A stretch of DNA of 64,000 bases from Chryseobacterium gleum. Lineage in GTDB: Bacteria; Bacteroidota; Bacteroidia; Flavobacteriales; Schleiferiaceae. The stretch lies in assembly GCA_945883565.1 (NCBI GenBank), contig CAMCXO010000003.1, positions 62,001-126,000 on the forward strand. Direction: 5' to 3'. Positions 34,057-40,392 of the stretch are shown here, one piece after another; the stretch's first letter is position 1; the number at the start of each line of letters is the position of its first letter. Made by a program: the position numbers and the translations under genes. The notes beneath the pieces were generated by a model. It was not told where the DNA came from. It ran no database searches and saw only the letters and a list, made by a program, of their open reading frames with translations.

Positions 34057-34360
34057 ATAGCCAGTCGTCGCCGAGAGGCTTACTGTCATCTTTTTTAAAG
34101 CATCTGCGGCCTAATGCTCGATGGCAAAGGATTCTATGGTATTTTCGGTTATTCGAGTCATTCTATATAAAATTTATCATCCTGCCATTTTGCAGGGTTG
34201 TTGATGATATATTCCGAAATGGTATGATAGGATTGTTCGTTTCGGATGATGTGTTCGTAATAATTGCGTTGCCACAATTTACCACCAAATGGTTGCCATC
34301 TCAAATTTTTCACGCCACGGATATATTCGTTGGTGGTCATTGTTTTGAACCATTGCACCA

Positions 34361-34402
34361 CCCGATGTAGGGGCGAACCTACGTGTTCGCCCCTACATCG
34401 GG
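34361..34402. repeat. Perfect 18-bp-stem palindrome inside the RAYT gene
   Basis: CCCGATGTAGGGGCGAAC (34361-34378) and its exact complement (34385-34402) enclose the loop CTACGT. It is a second palindrome class, distinct from the GGGCAGAC type. Its CTA at 34393-34395 gives the premature TAG of the transposase frame. Confidence 0.85.
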
Positions 34403-34427
34403 TTGGTGTTCGCAACAATTGGGTTGG

Positions 34428-34735
34428 TGTTGTCCGTATTAGGGCAGACACGCAGGTCTGCCCCTACATGTGCGCCCAATGATGATTGTTCGTCCGCGGT
34501 TGGGGTAATCCCATGGGATTGCATGTTTTCGGTTTTATTAGGGCAGACACGCAGGTCTGCCCCTACGTGTTCGCCCTCTATTGGGATCGCATTTGCGTTG
34601 TTCGTATTAGGGCAGACACGCAGGTCTGCCCCTACGTGTTCGCCCAATGATGATTGTTCGTCCGCGGTTGGGGTAATCCCATGGGATTGCATGTTTTCGG
34701 TTTTATCAGGGCAGACACGCAGGTCTGCCCCTACG
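34428..34735. repeat. Direct duplication with 168-bp period inside the RAYT gene
   Basis: 34428-34567 recurs at 34596-34735 with few differences. The period of 168 bases equals 56 codons, so the duplication keeps the reading frame and repeats the peptide NKTENMQSHGITPTADEQSS along with two REP palindromes. Confidence 0.8.
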
Positions 34736-34917
34736 GTTCCAATATTTTCGATAATGCAATGGAAATGATTGGGCATTATCACCATTTCGTGGCAACGGAT
34801 ATCCGGAAATTTGTTTTCCAATTCATCATACCATTTTTCAACCATCTTGCCGGCATCATTCAAAATCATTTCGGCATTGGTGCGAATTTCTGGGCAGACA
34901 CGCAGGTCTGCCCCTAC
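34442..34917. repeat. Five identical 26-bp REP palindromes
   Basis: Copies at 34442-34467, 34541-34566, 34610-34635, 34709-34734 and 34892-34917. Each has arms GGGCAGAC and GTCTGCCC around ACGCAG and ends CTAC. All five lie in the same frame of the RAYT gene. The identity of the copies points to recent spread. Confidence 0.9.
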
Positions 34918-35088
34918 GGATTGATTCATTTGCACAATATTGCCAAATAAACACAATCTGTCTTTTACACAAATGGTAATAAAATACAATCCTGCCTGTG
35001 TGTAATCGTATCCCTTTAACCGGATGGATTTACGATGGTGAATATTAGGATTGTATTTGTTCATTCTATTTTTTATTATTTGGTAATT

Positions 35089-35114
35089 GGGCAGACACAT
35101 GGGTCAGCCCTTAC
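35089..35114. repeat. Degenerate sixth REP palindrome at the hsdS-RAYT boundary
   Basis: It reads GGGCAGACACATGGGTCAGCCC-like, with several mismatches to the five perfect copies. It lies between the RAYT start and the hsdS remnant, and its last bases form the hsdS stop codon. Confidence 0.7.
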
Positions 35115-35381: not shown

Positions 35382-35708
35382 TTAATCTTTAAAAAGTTGT
35401 TTTTCATAGAATAGTTTTCCTACTCGGTTGATGTGTTCGGTAAGTGCGGGTTCGGTAATGGTATGAAAATTAAGCACATCAAACTTATAAGGCATGGGCG
35501 TTTCTTCATTCAAGTGAAAACTAACATGGGTAACGATTTGTGAGGTAATGTTTTTTCCTTTCAATGCTATATCCACATCGCTTCCAAGCTTGTAAGTGCC
35601 TTTTGCACGGCTGCCAAAAATGAGGGCTTGCTCAATTTCAGGCTCTTTTTCCATAATGCGGCAAATCATTTCTAAATCGCCAGGCTTTAAACCGAAATCA
35701 TTTTTCAT
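35382..35708 (-). CDS. mntA: MntA-type nucleotidyltransferase antitoxin
   Basis: 108 residues, minimal nucleotidyltransferase. The metal/nucleotide motif is FGSRAKGTYKLGSDVDIAL (GSx10DxD). A third acidic residue is likely in KFDVLNF. In studied pairs this enzyme adds AMP units to a tyrosine of the HEPN partner and silences it. It overlaps the upstream HEPN gene by 11 bases and is followed by the hsdS remnant. Confidence 0.9.
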   Translation of the reverse strand: MKNDFGLKPGDLEMICRIMEKEPEIEQALIFGSRAKGTYKLGSDVDIALKGKNITSQIVTHVSFHLNEETPMPYKFDVLNFHTITEPALTEHINRVGKLFYEKQLFKD

Positions 35709-36108
35709 TCATTTTTTGGTTAAAGGTGAGTTGCAATTCTTTCATGATGGGGTAATACTTATGGTCAATCAACTGTTCCATTTCTGTAGCTTTTTCTTCA
35801 TCGTAGGTGTGGCTTGTCAAATTCCTATCTTCCAATAACTGCATCCAATCATGCCCTTGTTTGATTAACCCAACTTCAAAGGCTTTTTTCAATGCAGACC
35901 TTGGTGATTTTACATCCTGAAAACCTTGCTCTTCCAAAAAATCTTTCAAAAGTTTCCAGGCAAGCTCAAAACCCATTTCAAACAATTGAATGATGCCTGC
36001 TTTTTGTACCAAATCTGGTTGTACGATAGCTAGAGCCACTTCAAGATGGCTCATTACTTTATTATAATTATGCAAGCGTTGATGCCAGCGTATATCTTGT
36101 GTACTCAT
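35698..36108 (-). CDS. hepT: HEPN-domain protein (HI0074 / HepT-like), probable toxin
   Basis: 136 residues, all helical. The motif RNLTSHTY matches RX4HXY, the RNase and AMPylation motif of HepT toxins. The upstream helix has [20 protein letters not shown]. In older annotation this family is called nucleotidyltransferase substrate-binding protein. With MntA it forms a toxin-antitoxin pair. The start overlaps the hsdM stop as ATGA, so it is expressed from the methylase promoter. Toxicity is inferred from the motif. Confidence 0.88.
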
Positions 36109-37715
36109 ACTTTAACTTTCGAAAGGTTCATACTTATTTGTTCATTCAATTGGGCTTCTTCTTTCAGTTGTGCTTCCAACTCTGACTTCAAACTGGTAAA
36201 GCGTTCAGCAAAATTGAAGTCGTCTTCTTCATCAGGTAAACCCACATATCTGCCAGGAGTAAGCACATAGTCGAGTTCTCTTATCTTACTGATGGGTGCA
36301 GAGGCACAAAAGCCGGGGATGTCTTCATCACCACCTTTAACCACCCCGTCAGCCTCCGGCTGCCACCCCTCCAAAGGAGGGGAATTTCTCCAATTGTGGT
36401 AGGTGCTGGTGATTTTGTCTATGTCTTCTTTTGAAAGTTCTTTAGTTCTACGGTTAATCAAATGCCCCAAGTTTCGGGCATCAATAAATAAAATCTCGTT
36501 GCTTCGGTCTCTGAAACCACCCCGCCCTTCGGGCACCCCTCCAGAGGAGGGGAATTTGCCGGTGCGGTTGCGGCTCATAAACCATAAAGCGGCAGGAATT
36601 TGGGTGTTTAAAAACAATTTGGCAGGTAGGTTTACAATGCAATCAATCAAACCGTTTTCAACCAAGGCTTTTCTTATGTCGCCTTCGCCTGATGTTTTAG
36701 ATGTCAATGCACCTTTTGCCAATACCACACCTGCTTGTCCGCTTGGTGCTAAGTGGTAAATAAAATGTTGCATCCAGGCAAAGTTGGCGTTGCCTATTGG
36801 TGGTGTGCCGTATTGCCAACGTCCATCGGTTCGCATTAAGTCACCGCCCCAATCACTTACGTTAAACGGTGGATTCGCAATGATGTAATCTGCTTTCAGG
36901 TCTTTGTGAGCATCGTTTAAAAATGAACCTTCAATGTTCCATTTCACTTGTGAGCTGTCAATACCACGAATAGCCAAGTTCATTTTAGCCAGTCGCCAAG
37001 TGGTTTGGTTACTCTCTTGTCCGTAAATGGAAATGTCGTTTACTTTTCCTTGGTGTTCGGTTACAAATTTCTCGGAGTGAACAAACATACCACCCGAACC
37101 ACAACAAGGGTCAAATACCCGGCCTTTGTATGGTTCCAGCATTTCCACCAATAATTCTACAACGCTTCTTGGCGTGTAGAACTGTCCGCCTTTCTTGCCT
37201 TCAGCAAGTGCAAACTCACCCAAGAAATATTCAAAAACGTGTCCAAGCACATCGGCACTTCTTGCTTTGGCATCGCCTAAGGCAATGTTTCCAACCAAGT
37301 CAATCAGTTCACCCAAACTGGTCGGGTCAAGATTTTGTCGGGCAAATACTTTTGGTAAAACACCTTTCAAGGAAGCATTTTCTTTTTCAATAGCGTCCAT
37401 GGCATCATCCACAAACTTCCCAATTTCAGGTTGTTTGGCTTTCGATTGCAAATAGTTCCATCGGGCATCCTGCGGAACGAAGAATACATTTTCAGCTTTG
37501 TATTCGTCTTTGTCTTCGGGGTCTGCACCGTTTGCTTCGTCTGCTTTTAGTTTTGCATATTGTTCTTCAAAAGCATCAGAAATATATTTCAGGAAGATTA
37601 AACCTAACACAATGTGCTTGTATTCAGCTGCATCAATGTTCTTGCGGAGTTTGTCCGCTGTTTTCCAGAGTTGCTTCTCTAAAGGTTCTTCCGTTGTTGC
37701 TTTTTGTTTAGCCAT
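36105..37715 (-). CDS. hsdM: Type I restriction-modification DNA methyltransferase with two palindromic inserts
   Basis: 536 residues. The N-terminal helical domain starts [20 protein letters not shown]. The SAM site is [15 protein letters not shown], and the catalytic motif is [13 protein letters not shown] (N6-adenine type). The C-terminal region contains two in-frame inserts encoded by GC-rich palindromic repeats: [13 protein letters not shown] before [16 protein letters not shown], and [18 protein letters not shown] before [12 protein letters not shown]. Both lie in surface-type loops and keep the frame. No hsdR gene is in the window and hsdS is destroyed, so it is probably an orphan without specificity. 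Confidence 0.95.
36340..36387. repeat. Palindromic repeat insert A in hsdM
   Basis: It reads ACCACCCCGTCAGCCTCCGG, continuing into the hairpin CCCCTCC-AAA-GGAGGGG and AATTT. Same family as insert B and as dispersed Bacteroidota intergenic palindromes. It encodes [16 protein letters not shown] on the hsdM strand. Confidence 0.8.
36516..36557. repeat. Palindromic repeat insert B in hsdM
   Basis: It has the order ACCACCCC, GCCCTTCGGGC hairpin, then CCCCTCC-AGA-GGAGGGG and AATTT. It encodes [14 protein letters not shown] on the hsdM strand. It shares both ends with insert A and differs in the middle. Confidence 0.8.
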
Positions 37716-38308
37716 TATATTCTGTTAAGCATTAATTCGTTTAAAGTCTGCTTATTTAAGTTTTTAATGCCCATTATCGTCATTTGGTGCGGTGGCAAAA
37801 ATGGCTCTTTTGGTTTTGCGAAGGGTCGGCTTTTGTGACGGACAAAACCAAATGTACTGTTAGTGCGGCTGACGAATGTATTCTTAATAAATGTTTAGGC
37901 TTGAAGTCAGCAATTACCTGTCCCAACAGCTAAACACGGTCAGTTTGAAAGTCTGTCTGCTTGGTGCATATGGTCTGTACGTTGAGTCCATTTTCAATCA
38001 TTGTCTTGCTGTGTAGTCTGTCTTTTTAGCATTGGTGGTAACTTATATATATACGGTAGTACACTGTACTTTTTCTGGCTTATTGTGGTTTGTTATTTTG
38101 CGTAGTGTATTCAGTATTAGTGGTTTTGTTTGTTTTGGTAGAATTAGCTGCGTTCTGGGTCAATTGATCTAGGGAGCTGTTGATTTTATTTACTTTGGTT
38201 AGGGTTATGTGGATCGAAATGGTGGTGGTCTTCGTGGTGTTTTGTGGCCCCAAAATCGTGTTCAAAGAGTTCGTAAAAAGGGTTTTGAGATATCCCGATG
38301 AATCTAAA
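37716..38308. other. Intergenic stretch upstream of hsdM, no gene seen
   Basis: No frame of convincing length or composition. It should contain the hsdM-hepT-mntA promoter on the minus strand, but no clear TAnnTTTG pair was found. An AT-rich alternating TATATATATA tract lies near 38046. Nothing else is supported. Confidence 0.5.
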
Positions 38309-38334
38309 TAGCCCACGGTTTAAACCGTGGGCTA
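38309..38334. repeat. 26-bp perfect palindrome at the head of the 21-bp array
   Basis: TAGCCCACGGTTT and its complement AAACCGTGGGCTA abut without a loop. Palindromes of this sequence are dispersed in Bacteroidota genomes. It lies 12 bases before the first recognisable array unit. Confidence 0.85.
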
Positions 38335-38346
38335 TGAGAAGGGTAT

Positions 38347-39394
38347 TGTTGAATGTTTGAAGTTTGTGGTTTTAGGGTGAAAGGCATTGGTGCAAATGAA
38401 GGTGTTGTGGGTTTAGCGACTCTTTTTGTTGGTAGAACTGAAAACGTTAGCGGTGAAATTGAAAATGCGCGCGGTGGAACCGATAACGTTCGTGGTGGAA
38501 AAGAAAACCTTGGTGGTTTGTTGTAAATGCGCGCGGTGCAGTGTTGAATTCTGTTGCTTAGTGTTGAAGCCGATGGTGCAAATGAAAAAGTTGGCGGAAG
38601 AATTGAAAATGTTCGTCGCTTAATTGCAAAGGGCTTTGGTGCAGCGTTTGACGCCGATGGTGCAGCGGATAATGGACGTGGTAAAACTGAAAATGCCAGC
38701 GGTGCAATTGAAAATGCCTATAGTTTGCTGTTTGATGCCTGTAGTTCGATGGTTGATGCGGGTATACAAAGTTGAAGAGGCCGGCAGTTGAATTGAAAAA
38801 GCCAACACCTGAAAGTGATGAAGCCTTCCGCTTTTCTTAAAACGTCGGTCGCTTTTTTGCAGAAGCCTGTGGTGGATGGTTTGAAGCCATGTCGGGAATG
38901 TTGGATGTCGGCTGCTTTTTTGAAAATGCCGGTTTCGTTTTTGAAAACGTCGACTGATTTTTTACAGATGCCAGGAGTTGATGGTTTGAAGCGGGCTTGG
39001 GAATTGAAAATGCGGGCTGCTTTTTTGCGGACGTTTGTGGTTTAGGGCGAGAAGCCATGTTTTGATGGTTTGAAGTGGGAGGATTTTTTGAAATGCCGGC
39101 AGAAGATTTGAAGAAGGCCATATTTGATGGTTTGACGTTGGTGCCGGAATGTTTGAAGTGGGCGGTTGAATGTTTGAAGCGGGCGGTTGAATGTTTGATG
39201 CCGGCGGTTGAATGTTTGAAGCGGGCGGTTGAATGTTTGATGCCGGCGGTTGAACGTTTGAAGCCATCGGTTGAATGTTTGAAGCGGACGGTTTAACGTT
39301 TGAAGCGGGCGGTTTAACGTTTGAAGCGGGCGGTTGAACGTTTGAAGCCGGCGGTTGAATTTTAGAAGTCAATTAATGATGGTTTGATGCTTTT
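38347..39394. repeat. About fifty degenerate 21-bp tandem units
   Basis: The stretch divides into consecutive 21-base units of the form GGTnnAAnTGAAAATGnnnGC, grading into GGTTGAATGTTTGAAGCGGGC. Sample starts: 38431, 38452, 38473, 38494, 38575, 38596, 38659, 38680, 38701, 39164, 39185, 39206, 39269, 39332. The register slips only by -3 near 38560 and by +1 between about 38830 and 39160. The right end is nearly uniform and the left end strongly diverged. The minus strand reads as heptapeptides such as PPASNIQ, with stops, so no intact gene spans it. Function unknown. Confidence 0.85.
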
Positions 39395-39496
39395 TCAATT
39401 TATTTTTAAGCGGGTTGATTTTCTTGGCCTGCGGCAATTAAATTCTTGCAATTGATTGATCTTTTGGGCGCCTCAATCGCCGGCGCAGGGCTTGTT

Positions 39497-39518
39497 CCTT
39501 TTGGCTTGACCCAAAAGG
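39497..39518. repeat. Small hairpin repeat
   Basis: CCTTTTGG (39497-39504) and CCAAAAGG (39511-39518) flank CTTGAC. It lies between the 21-bp array and the first long direct repeat. Confidence 0.6.
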
Positions 39519-39520
39519 TC

Positions 39521-39787
39521 AAGCTGGACGCTTTGGGGTAATGTTTTTGGGAAAAATTGTCTGGAATTATGTCGCCCCTTCGGGGCTTATAGGTTATGGG
39601 TACGGTTATTCTATAATCATGTCGCCCCTTCGGGGCTTTGTTTTTAGTCTAAATTGTTTTTTCTGCTTTTTTTGAGTCGCCATGCTGAAGGGGTCGGGGG
39701 GTTGAATATTGTTTATTGGGACCATTAGGACTATTGGGACTTTAGGGACGTAGTTGTTGCTGCTTTGGATTTGCGCCAGGGATTGCA
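39521..39787. repeat. Long direct repeat, copy 1
   Basis: 267 bases starting AAGCTGGACGCTTTGGGG and ending GCGCCAGGGATTGCA. It contains two GCCCC-TTCG-GGGC hairpins (39574-39586, 39624-39636). Copy 2 lies 382 bases downstream. No coding frame of note. Confidence 0.85.
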
Positions 39788-39858
39788 ATTGAAGAATGGC
39801 GGCCGGGCGAGCTCCTTCGTGTGGTCTTACTATGCCTCTTCGGCGGTGTAGCAGTCGC

Positions 39859-39905
39859 CATTGTCTGAACACGATTTTTAGGATTAATGGATGGGCATGA
39901 TTAAG
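39859..39905 (+). repeat. Left arm of a 47-bp imperfect inverted repeat
   Basis: Starts CATTGTCTGAACACGATTTT and ends in GGGCATGATTAAG-like sequence. The right arm is at 40216-40263. The pair encloses copy 2 of the direct repeat, giving a MITE-like unit of about 405 bases. Confidence 0.65.
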
Positions 39906-40177
39906 CTGGACGCTTTGGGGTAATGTTTTTGGGAAAAATTGTCTGGAATTATGTCGCCCCTTCGGGGCTTATAGGTTATGGGTACGGTTATTCTATAATC
40001 ATGTCGCCCCTTCGGGGCGTTGTTTTTAGTTTAAATTGTTTTTTCTGCTTTTTTTGAGTCGCCATGTGAAGGGGTCGGGGAGTTGAATATTGTTTATTGG
40101 GACCATTGGTATCATTAGGACTATTGGGACTTTAGGGACGTAATTGTTGCTGTTTGGGATTTGCGCCAGGGATTGCA
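39903..40177. repeat. Long direct repeat, copy 2
   Basis: 275 bases matching 39521-39787, with scattered changes and an extra GGTATCATT-like insertion near 40110. The two hairpins recur at 39955-39967 and 40006-40018. Confidence 0.85.
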
Positions 40178-40215
40178 GCGGAAAGCCCGCAGCCACCTTG
40201 ACCAAAGCCTTTTGA

Positions 40216-40263
40216 TTTAATCATGCCCATCCTTAAATCCAGAAAATCATGGTTCAGACAATG
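40216..40263 (-). repeat. Right arm of the 47-bp inverted repeat
   Basis: TTTAATCATGCCCATCC at its left end and GGTTCAGACAATG at its right end complement the arm at 39859-39905 with a limited number of mismatches. Confidence 0.65.
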
Positions 40264-40392
40264 GCGGCGAGGACTTGCAGCGGAAAGCCCGGCCCGCGAG
40301 GGGCTGAAGGGGTTTTGGCTTTGTATGGTTATTATGCCCCGAGCGGGGGCGCCCAAATTGAGGGCTTTATGTGGGGGAAAAGGCGGGCTAAC

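Follow-up and report, generated by a model that had tools for sequence, protein, structure and literature searches.

The array of 21-bp repeats studied here is one module of a dispersed non-coding element of about 2.3 kb, and it is probably a non-coding satellite DNA of a bacterium, which would have arisen on a recombinase platform, have been copied along with that platform and still be growing where its units are alike. Positions are those of the window, i.e., the whole stretch of 64,000 nucleotides that was analysed, unless a locus (L) number precedes them. The array consists of about 50 units of 21 bp at 38346-39380 (about 51 in the count over all arrays), and the features of the element and its surroundings are listed in Table 1.

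Period, extent, and zones of the array

Because Tandem Repeats Finder called chiefly the right end (39130-39368, period 21), together with two short pieces on the left, the period of the left part was tested by autocorrelation instead. Over lags 5 to 129, the top lag in 38347-39140 is 21 (0.458, as against a mean of 0.270 and an SD of 0.043), with harmonics at 42, 63, 84, 105, and 126, and the lag-21 identity of the right part is 0.816. The claim of about fifty 21-bp units, made in a preliminary description of this DNA, has thus been confirmed by the top lag in both parts; that description had named a 21-bp peak confined to the last 230 bases as the result that would speak against it, and the peak in 38347-39140 lies outside them. 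When the whole 64 kb was scanned in segments of 300 bases, values above 0.42 were obtained only for segments on the array.

A cyclic profile of 21 states, fitted to the left part of the consensus of the copies, gave a score of 260, compared with -1 +/- 9 (maximum 18) for shuffled sequences. The consensus unit is GGTTGAATTGAAAATGCCGGT in the left part and GGTTGAATGTTTGAAGCGGGC in the right part. According to the same fit, the phase of the left part jumps by a small amount at five points (38520, 38560, 38767, 38813, and 39091), where two shifts had been described before.

A dispersed family with higher-order repeats

In the genome to which the window belongs (G000; 2.86 Mb, 64 contigs), the unit GGTTGAATGTTTGAAGC has 124 matches at two or fewer mismatches, and the reversed control has none. 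The genome search for the 21-mer that had been suggested found arrays of the unit at 22 loci; at least 20 of these TTGAA arrays are present, counted at the 22 loci, and they make up 18,029 bp of the stretches read. Four other members of the genus have two or fewer matches each at the same threshold, and thus no array of this unit is present in those four. No match to the unit pattern was found in 84,980 genomes or viral contigs, from which records close to the genome under study were possibly excluded, and no matching description of a 21-bp family was found in the literature.

Array size varies between loci from about 4 to 70 units, the shortest ones ending at contig ends, and the uniform zone comprises between about 2 and about 40 units. 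Since the genomes are all drafts and many arrays stop at contig ends, these copy numbers and lengths are lower bounds. The uniform zone adjoins the end of a Flavo-1-like element in every locus having both, and in five loci the array joins this element directly with an identical unit phase. Dispersed copies, variation in the copy number of the uniform zone and the lack of coding described below bear out the minisatellite that had been listed among the candidate explanations.

The degenerate block is present at nine loci of the genome with a mutual identity of 80-92%, and its degeneration is therefore older than its copying. The left end had previously been regarded as having drifted in this copy, which does not hold, because the block was already degenerate before dispersal. 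Of the related proposal of an old amplification from the right end, the position of the homogeneous zone at the right agrees with the data, but the degenerate part goes back to the common ancestor of the copies.

Most of the longer degenerate arrays have a higher-order repeat of 105 bp (5 x 21). At eight loci (L060, L061, L064, L067, L068, L069, L076, and L077), the lag-105 identity is 0.70-0.84, and the lag-21 identity of the degenerate arrays among them is about 0.5. The 105-bp repeat is composed of five distinct 21-mers, for example CGGTGCGGGAAGGTTTGAAGT, CTGTTGATAATTTGAAAACGT, CGGTAAAAAAATTGAAAATGC, CTATTAATGAATGCTCGAAGT, and CAACTTTTGACTGTTCGATGC, as read from L077.

CAMDHZ01 (G149), a bin from a lake metagenome that bears the name Chitinophaga pinensis, has four loci in common with the genome under study at 99.5-100% identity, and most of the common contigs stop in or before the array. 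This bin also has platform loci with different cargo. Since the glycosyltransferase gene of the window was not found in it by DNA search, the bin may be mixed or misnamed and has been used cautiously.

Architecture of the element

Local comparison of the loci revealed that the stretch from 38035 to 40365 recurs as a whole, with the order and orientation of its modules fixed, and that the module set is incomplete in some element copies. From left to right come the end AACTTATATATATACG, a domain of 300 bp that contains a 28-bp palindrome, the array with its degenerate zone first and its uniform zone second, the REP-like modules E-H and a Flavo-1-like end. The Flavo-1-like element terminates in GGGGGCGCCC, and the next gene ends about 30 bp further on. 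Its match to the Rfam family RF01705 is 27.8 bits (E 0.005), the gathering score of 42 not being reached. Its core has 60 matches in the genome as a dispersed DNA repeat, often beside the 3' ends of genes. A REP-like module has been duplicated, 39903-40107 being a 98% direct copy of about 39521-39726, and carries CGCCCCTTCGGGGC hairpins.

Table 1. Location of features in the window and, where a locus number is given, at other loci.
Feature	Location	Strand	Basis
REP-associated (IS200-like) transposase-like ORF, with VGADLRVCP peptide repeats	34393..35100	-	Sequence reading; no Pfam match
Nucleotidyltransferase	35382-35708	-	Pfam Polbeta 9e-15
Nucleotidyltransferase substrate-binding (HEPN-type) protein	35698-36108	-	Pfam NTase_sub_bind 2e-37
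hsdM (type I methyltransferase), the first cargo gene to the left of the platform	36105..37715	-	N6_Mtase 7e-105, HsdM_N 6e-30 (Pfam); MTase_I 1e-199 (PADLOC)
attC-like palindrome, GGCTCTTTTGGTTTTGC..GCAAAACCAAATGT	37784..37871	-	Matches in L063, L071, L132
Left boundary of the element, GTAACTTATATATATACG	38035..38060	-	Boundary alignment of 13 loci of G000 and a further lake bin
Relic of tyrosine recombinase C-terminus, KTTTISIHITLTKVNKINSSLDQL	38080..38316	-	Six-frame comparison of copies
Perfect 28-bp palindrome, ATAGCCCACGGTTTAAACCGTGGGCTAT	38308..38335	.	Weak Acido-Lenti-1 similarity, below gathering score
Old degenerate array zone, about 38 units	38346..39138	+	Autocorrelation, profile fit, nine genomic copies
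Young near-uniform array zone, about 11 units	39139..39380	+	Tandem Repeats Finder, autocorrelation
REP-like modules E, F, G, H, dispersed	39399..40110	+	Comparison of loci
Flavo-1-like right boundary, end GGGGGCGCCC	40160..40365	+	Rfam RF01705, right-boundary alignment of copies
22-bp-unit arrays	L135 4100-4900; L204 150-940; L210 2650-2960; L272 1-222		
Gene of about 255 residues	L190 1638-2399; L191; L132 8431-9228		

Arrays of other units are present at equivalent positions. At two platforms of the same genome (L132 and L133), the array family GGGCATAGATGCATTTTAAGT is found at the equivalent place, and L132 and L303, both with this second array type, can be aligned over 9 kb with a single gap. 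In two genus mates (G002 and G004), a separate 21-bp family lies upstream of an intact recombinase, and one or two other loci in each of them carry short pieces related to it.

No array was found at 20 loci with homologous recombinases from other genera and families, and thus the recombinase needs none; a general partnership of array and recombinase has been rejected on this ground. Of 20 Flavo-1 loci taken from outside the platforms, 17 lack an array and only three have one close by, and its role as a general Flavo-1 partner has likewise been rejected. These two results together indicate that the arrays are a feature of the genus and of its platforms.

Several further repeats and one gene were observed in these surroundings. 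A 22-bp array family, with the unit CTCGAACTCACTTACAACACAC, lies at the equivalent place between the recombinase relic and Flavo-1 (in L135, for example), and arrays with a 51-bp period lie near other recombinase relics and Flavo-1 elements (L193 2700-3450, L134 900-1250, and L205 4750-5001). In the family member G009 (L192 2130-2430), an array of 7-bp units, AACTCAT / AACGCTT, comes right after a Flavo-1-like repeat and upstream of a recombinase. A conserved gene of about 255 residues with no Pfam match is situated between array and recombinase in both G002 and G004 and at one locus of G000.

Cargo side and recombinase relic

The left boundary of the element is sharp: beyond the TATATATA motif the sequence differs in every copy, and in many copies a minus-strand gene starts 20-50 bp from the boundary. 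This putative attI-like boundary is common to 13 loci of the genome and to further ones of the lake bin, and the cargo beyond it differs. The genes past the left end are mostly phage-defence genes, including type I restriction and methyltransferase genes, a UG14 reverse transcriptase, a type IIG enzyme, an AbiU/AIPR protein, and others; eight of the ten cargo genes tested matched PADLOC models, two of them weakly, and lipoprotein or unknown genes hold the cargo position in other copies.

In the window, hsdM is intact (N6_Mtase and HsdM_N domains) and no hsdR was seen, so that the term “dead R-M locus” used in the preliminary description is fair; the locus belongs to a defence-gene hot spot common to the sister loci. 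The folding z of the attC-like palindrome next to hsdM is -1.1 here and -4.4 in L071. The ORF at 34393-35100 is located in the accessory stretch to the left of the element; because it has no Pfam match, its name rests on recognition of the N-terminal sequence, which we take to be that of a transposase. This ORF holds in-frame copies of an intergenic repeat encoding VGADLRVCP, and palindromic copies of the repeat are found at 34360-34470.

Read on its minus strand, the left domain codes for the C-terminal end of a tyrosine recombinase, KTTTISIHITLTKVNKINSSLDQL, and a fuller relic, SIKTATIYTHLTQAKVNRINSPLDQ, is found in L133; such short relics have been assigned by motif and not by profile match. 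L133 keeps, in addition, 205 residues upstream of the relic that are 41% identical to a homologue in G009, and the frame of that homologue continues into a recombinase. Full-length relatives of the recombinase are present in the genus mates G002 and G004 and also in G017. The only intact tyrosine recombinases over the Pfam cut-off in the genome of the window are two of the XerC/XerD type.

The best match of the intact relatives is the XerA/integron model of NCBI. Against the integron integrase model (TIGR02249; cut-off 265), they score 172 and 215 and are matched in two pieces, the best of which end at model position 179 and start at 239, and the additional domain specific to IntI was not found in them by this comparison. 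Because of the score below the cut-off and the match in two pieces, we do not call the platform an integron. In G017 (L194), an AIPR gene comes after the recombinase, and then two more genes, with repeated hairpins between them, an integron-like arrangement that may possibly represent an unrecognised integron lineage in Bacteroidota. The attC-like hairpins of G017, with the core CCGCTAACG / TGTTAGCGG, are located at L194 87-254, 1255-1614, and 2122-2290.

Proposed growth of the array and the question of spacing

We suppose that the array would grow by unequal in-register exchange or by slippage at that end at which adjacent units still resemble one another, and that it would freeze where units have diverged, while short-tract exchange between units would keep common positions common. 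The platform itself may be a dead integron-like locus whose cargo side has turned into a hot spot of defence genes, and the array would be carried along with it, having no function for the cell.

Substitutions were compared among six to nine related copies. The number per site is 0.036 in the TGAAAA.G phases and 0.128 in those of CCGG, compared with 0.075 for the recombinase relic, and purifying selection on TGAAAA.G was the first impression. This candidate has mostly been undone by the isolated singletons, i.e., the most recent changes, which amount to 0.0097 in the core, 0.0091 in other phases and 0.0178 in the CCGG phases, and by the clustering of changes within the same copy (23 pairs versus 9.5 +/- 2.7). 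Derived bases, furthermore, lean to the bases of other units (z 1.9). Since the singleton rates are equal, the changes are clustered and this lean exists, short-tract exchange fits better than selection on the motif.

Small indels are scarce. In six copies, the old block has 0 per 259 substitutions and the relic 4 per 60 (Fisher p = 0.0014), and in pairwise comparison the number per mismatch is 0.007 in the array versus 0.038, 0.038, 0.154, and 0.099 in other modules. Homopolymer runs are commoner in the array than in the relic. Because the alignment found 56 of the 58 indels that had been planted as a control, the missing small indels of the array have not been hidden by alignment. Two larger indels, one of 22 bp and one of 72 bp, do not correspond to any multiple of 21 and break the register, and the five old phase jumps of the left part likewise speak against a strict spacing. 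“Selection on spacing”, which had been raised earlier, is thus favoured to some extent by the scarcity of small indels but not by the two larger ones, and in-register exchange of units is an alternative to it.

Two results count against the satellite explanation. The scarcity of small indels, recent ones being absent, is poorly accounted for by unit exchange, and the period of 21 recurs in unrelated units at the equivalent position within the genus. The former is a concrete puzzle by which selection on spacing can be separated from concerted evolution.

These same two results, together with the low substitution level of the TGAAAA.G phases relative to the CCGG phases and the relic, would be expected of phased protein-binding or structural sites, in which selection holds a spacing of two helical turns while the sequence turns over. 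Such sites might, for example, organise or silence the adjacent defence genes, or serve the recombinase. We consider this explanation possible but doubtful, because the core is unprotected from recent isolated substitutions, the larger indels disregard the period, arrays are missing from the 20 homologous recombinase loci outside the genus, and the predicted curvature is ordinary. The predicted bend of the units is no higher than that of shuffled units (p 0.13-0.49, in a calculation with wedge parameters), a result that also argues against the curved-DNA array suggested at the outset. It is rather improbable that selection keeps the two-helical-turn periodicity, and not the sequence, beside the platforms of the genus, the array being a spacing-only element that organises or controls the defence cargo; if this were true, unrelated unit families would arise at one place.

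RNA structure and coding

A structured non-coding RNA transcribed from the array, with Flavo-1 as its 3' domain, is very improbable. Flavo-1 is annotated as an RNA motif in Rfam, and the plus strand of the uniform zone has a folding z of -4.1, but the older part folds no better than shuffled sequences (z -0.2 and 1.0), and Flavo-1 loci off the platforms rarely have an array nearby, as described above. In F. psychrophilum, moreover, Flavo-1 is found in both orientations, and many of its copies lie outside transcribed regions (PMC9723704).

No consistent synonymous excess was found in any of the six frames of ten arrays: the synonymous fraction between higher-order repeats equals the expectation in nearly all of the 60 frame tests, isolated outliers lying above as well as below it. 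The remains of a heptad-repeat protein gene on the minus or plus strand, a candidate of the preliminary description consistent with seven codons per 21 bp and with several frames open over long stretches, are largely refuted and now hardly credible, since the open frames and the few stops on the minus strand follow from the repeat unit itself, phase jumps interrupt the frames, and 38962-39372 has no Pfam match.

Comparison with known systems

The platform resembles integrons, above all those in which integrase and cassettes are co-directional, in its tyrosine recombinase, in a sharp boundary on the 3' side of the recombinase with changing cargo, in the defence nature of this cargo and, as seen in the relative G017, in hairpin sites between cargo genes. 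It differs from them in that the recombinase here is a relic and its intact relatives are below the integrase cut-off, and the hairpin cores of G017 (CCGCTAACG..TGTTAGCGG) do not fit the attC core GTTRRRY. In Bacteroidetes proper, one complete integron has been named, in Salinibacter ruber (PMC9024848). The array marks a family of recombinase platforms collecting phage-defence genes in Bacteroidota, for which few integrons have been described.

The right end of the element is like Flavo-1 (RF01705) in having both conserved boxes in their order and in its many copies, and unlike it in its score (27.8 versus 42 bits) and in a longer insert between the boxes.

Dispersed minisatellites, or VNTR loci, are known in bacteria, the MIRU-VNTR of mycobacteria being an example. 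The arrays share with them tandem units at many intergenic sites, a variable copy number and a unit family distributed throughout the genome; they are distinguished by the 21-bp unit with its five-unit higher-order repeat of 105 bp and by a fixed place in a platform of several modules, among them a recombinase relic and Flavo-1. In eukaryotic satellites of the alphoid type, diverged units are grouped into longer repeats that are amplified together. The satellite described here is similar to these in its higher-order grouping, its homogeneous young zone and its degenerate old zone, but it is bacterial, its arrays are at most about 1.5 kb long and no centromere is involved. Since it combines higher-order repeats, adjacent old and young zones and many paralogous copies, models of satellite growth can be tested on it without a centromere.
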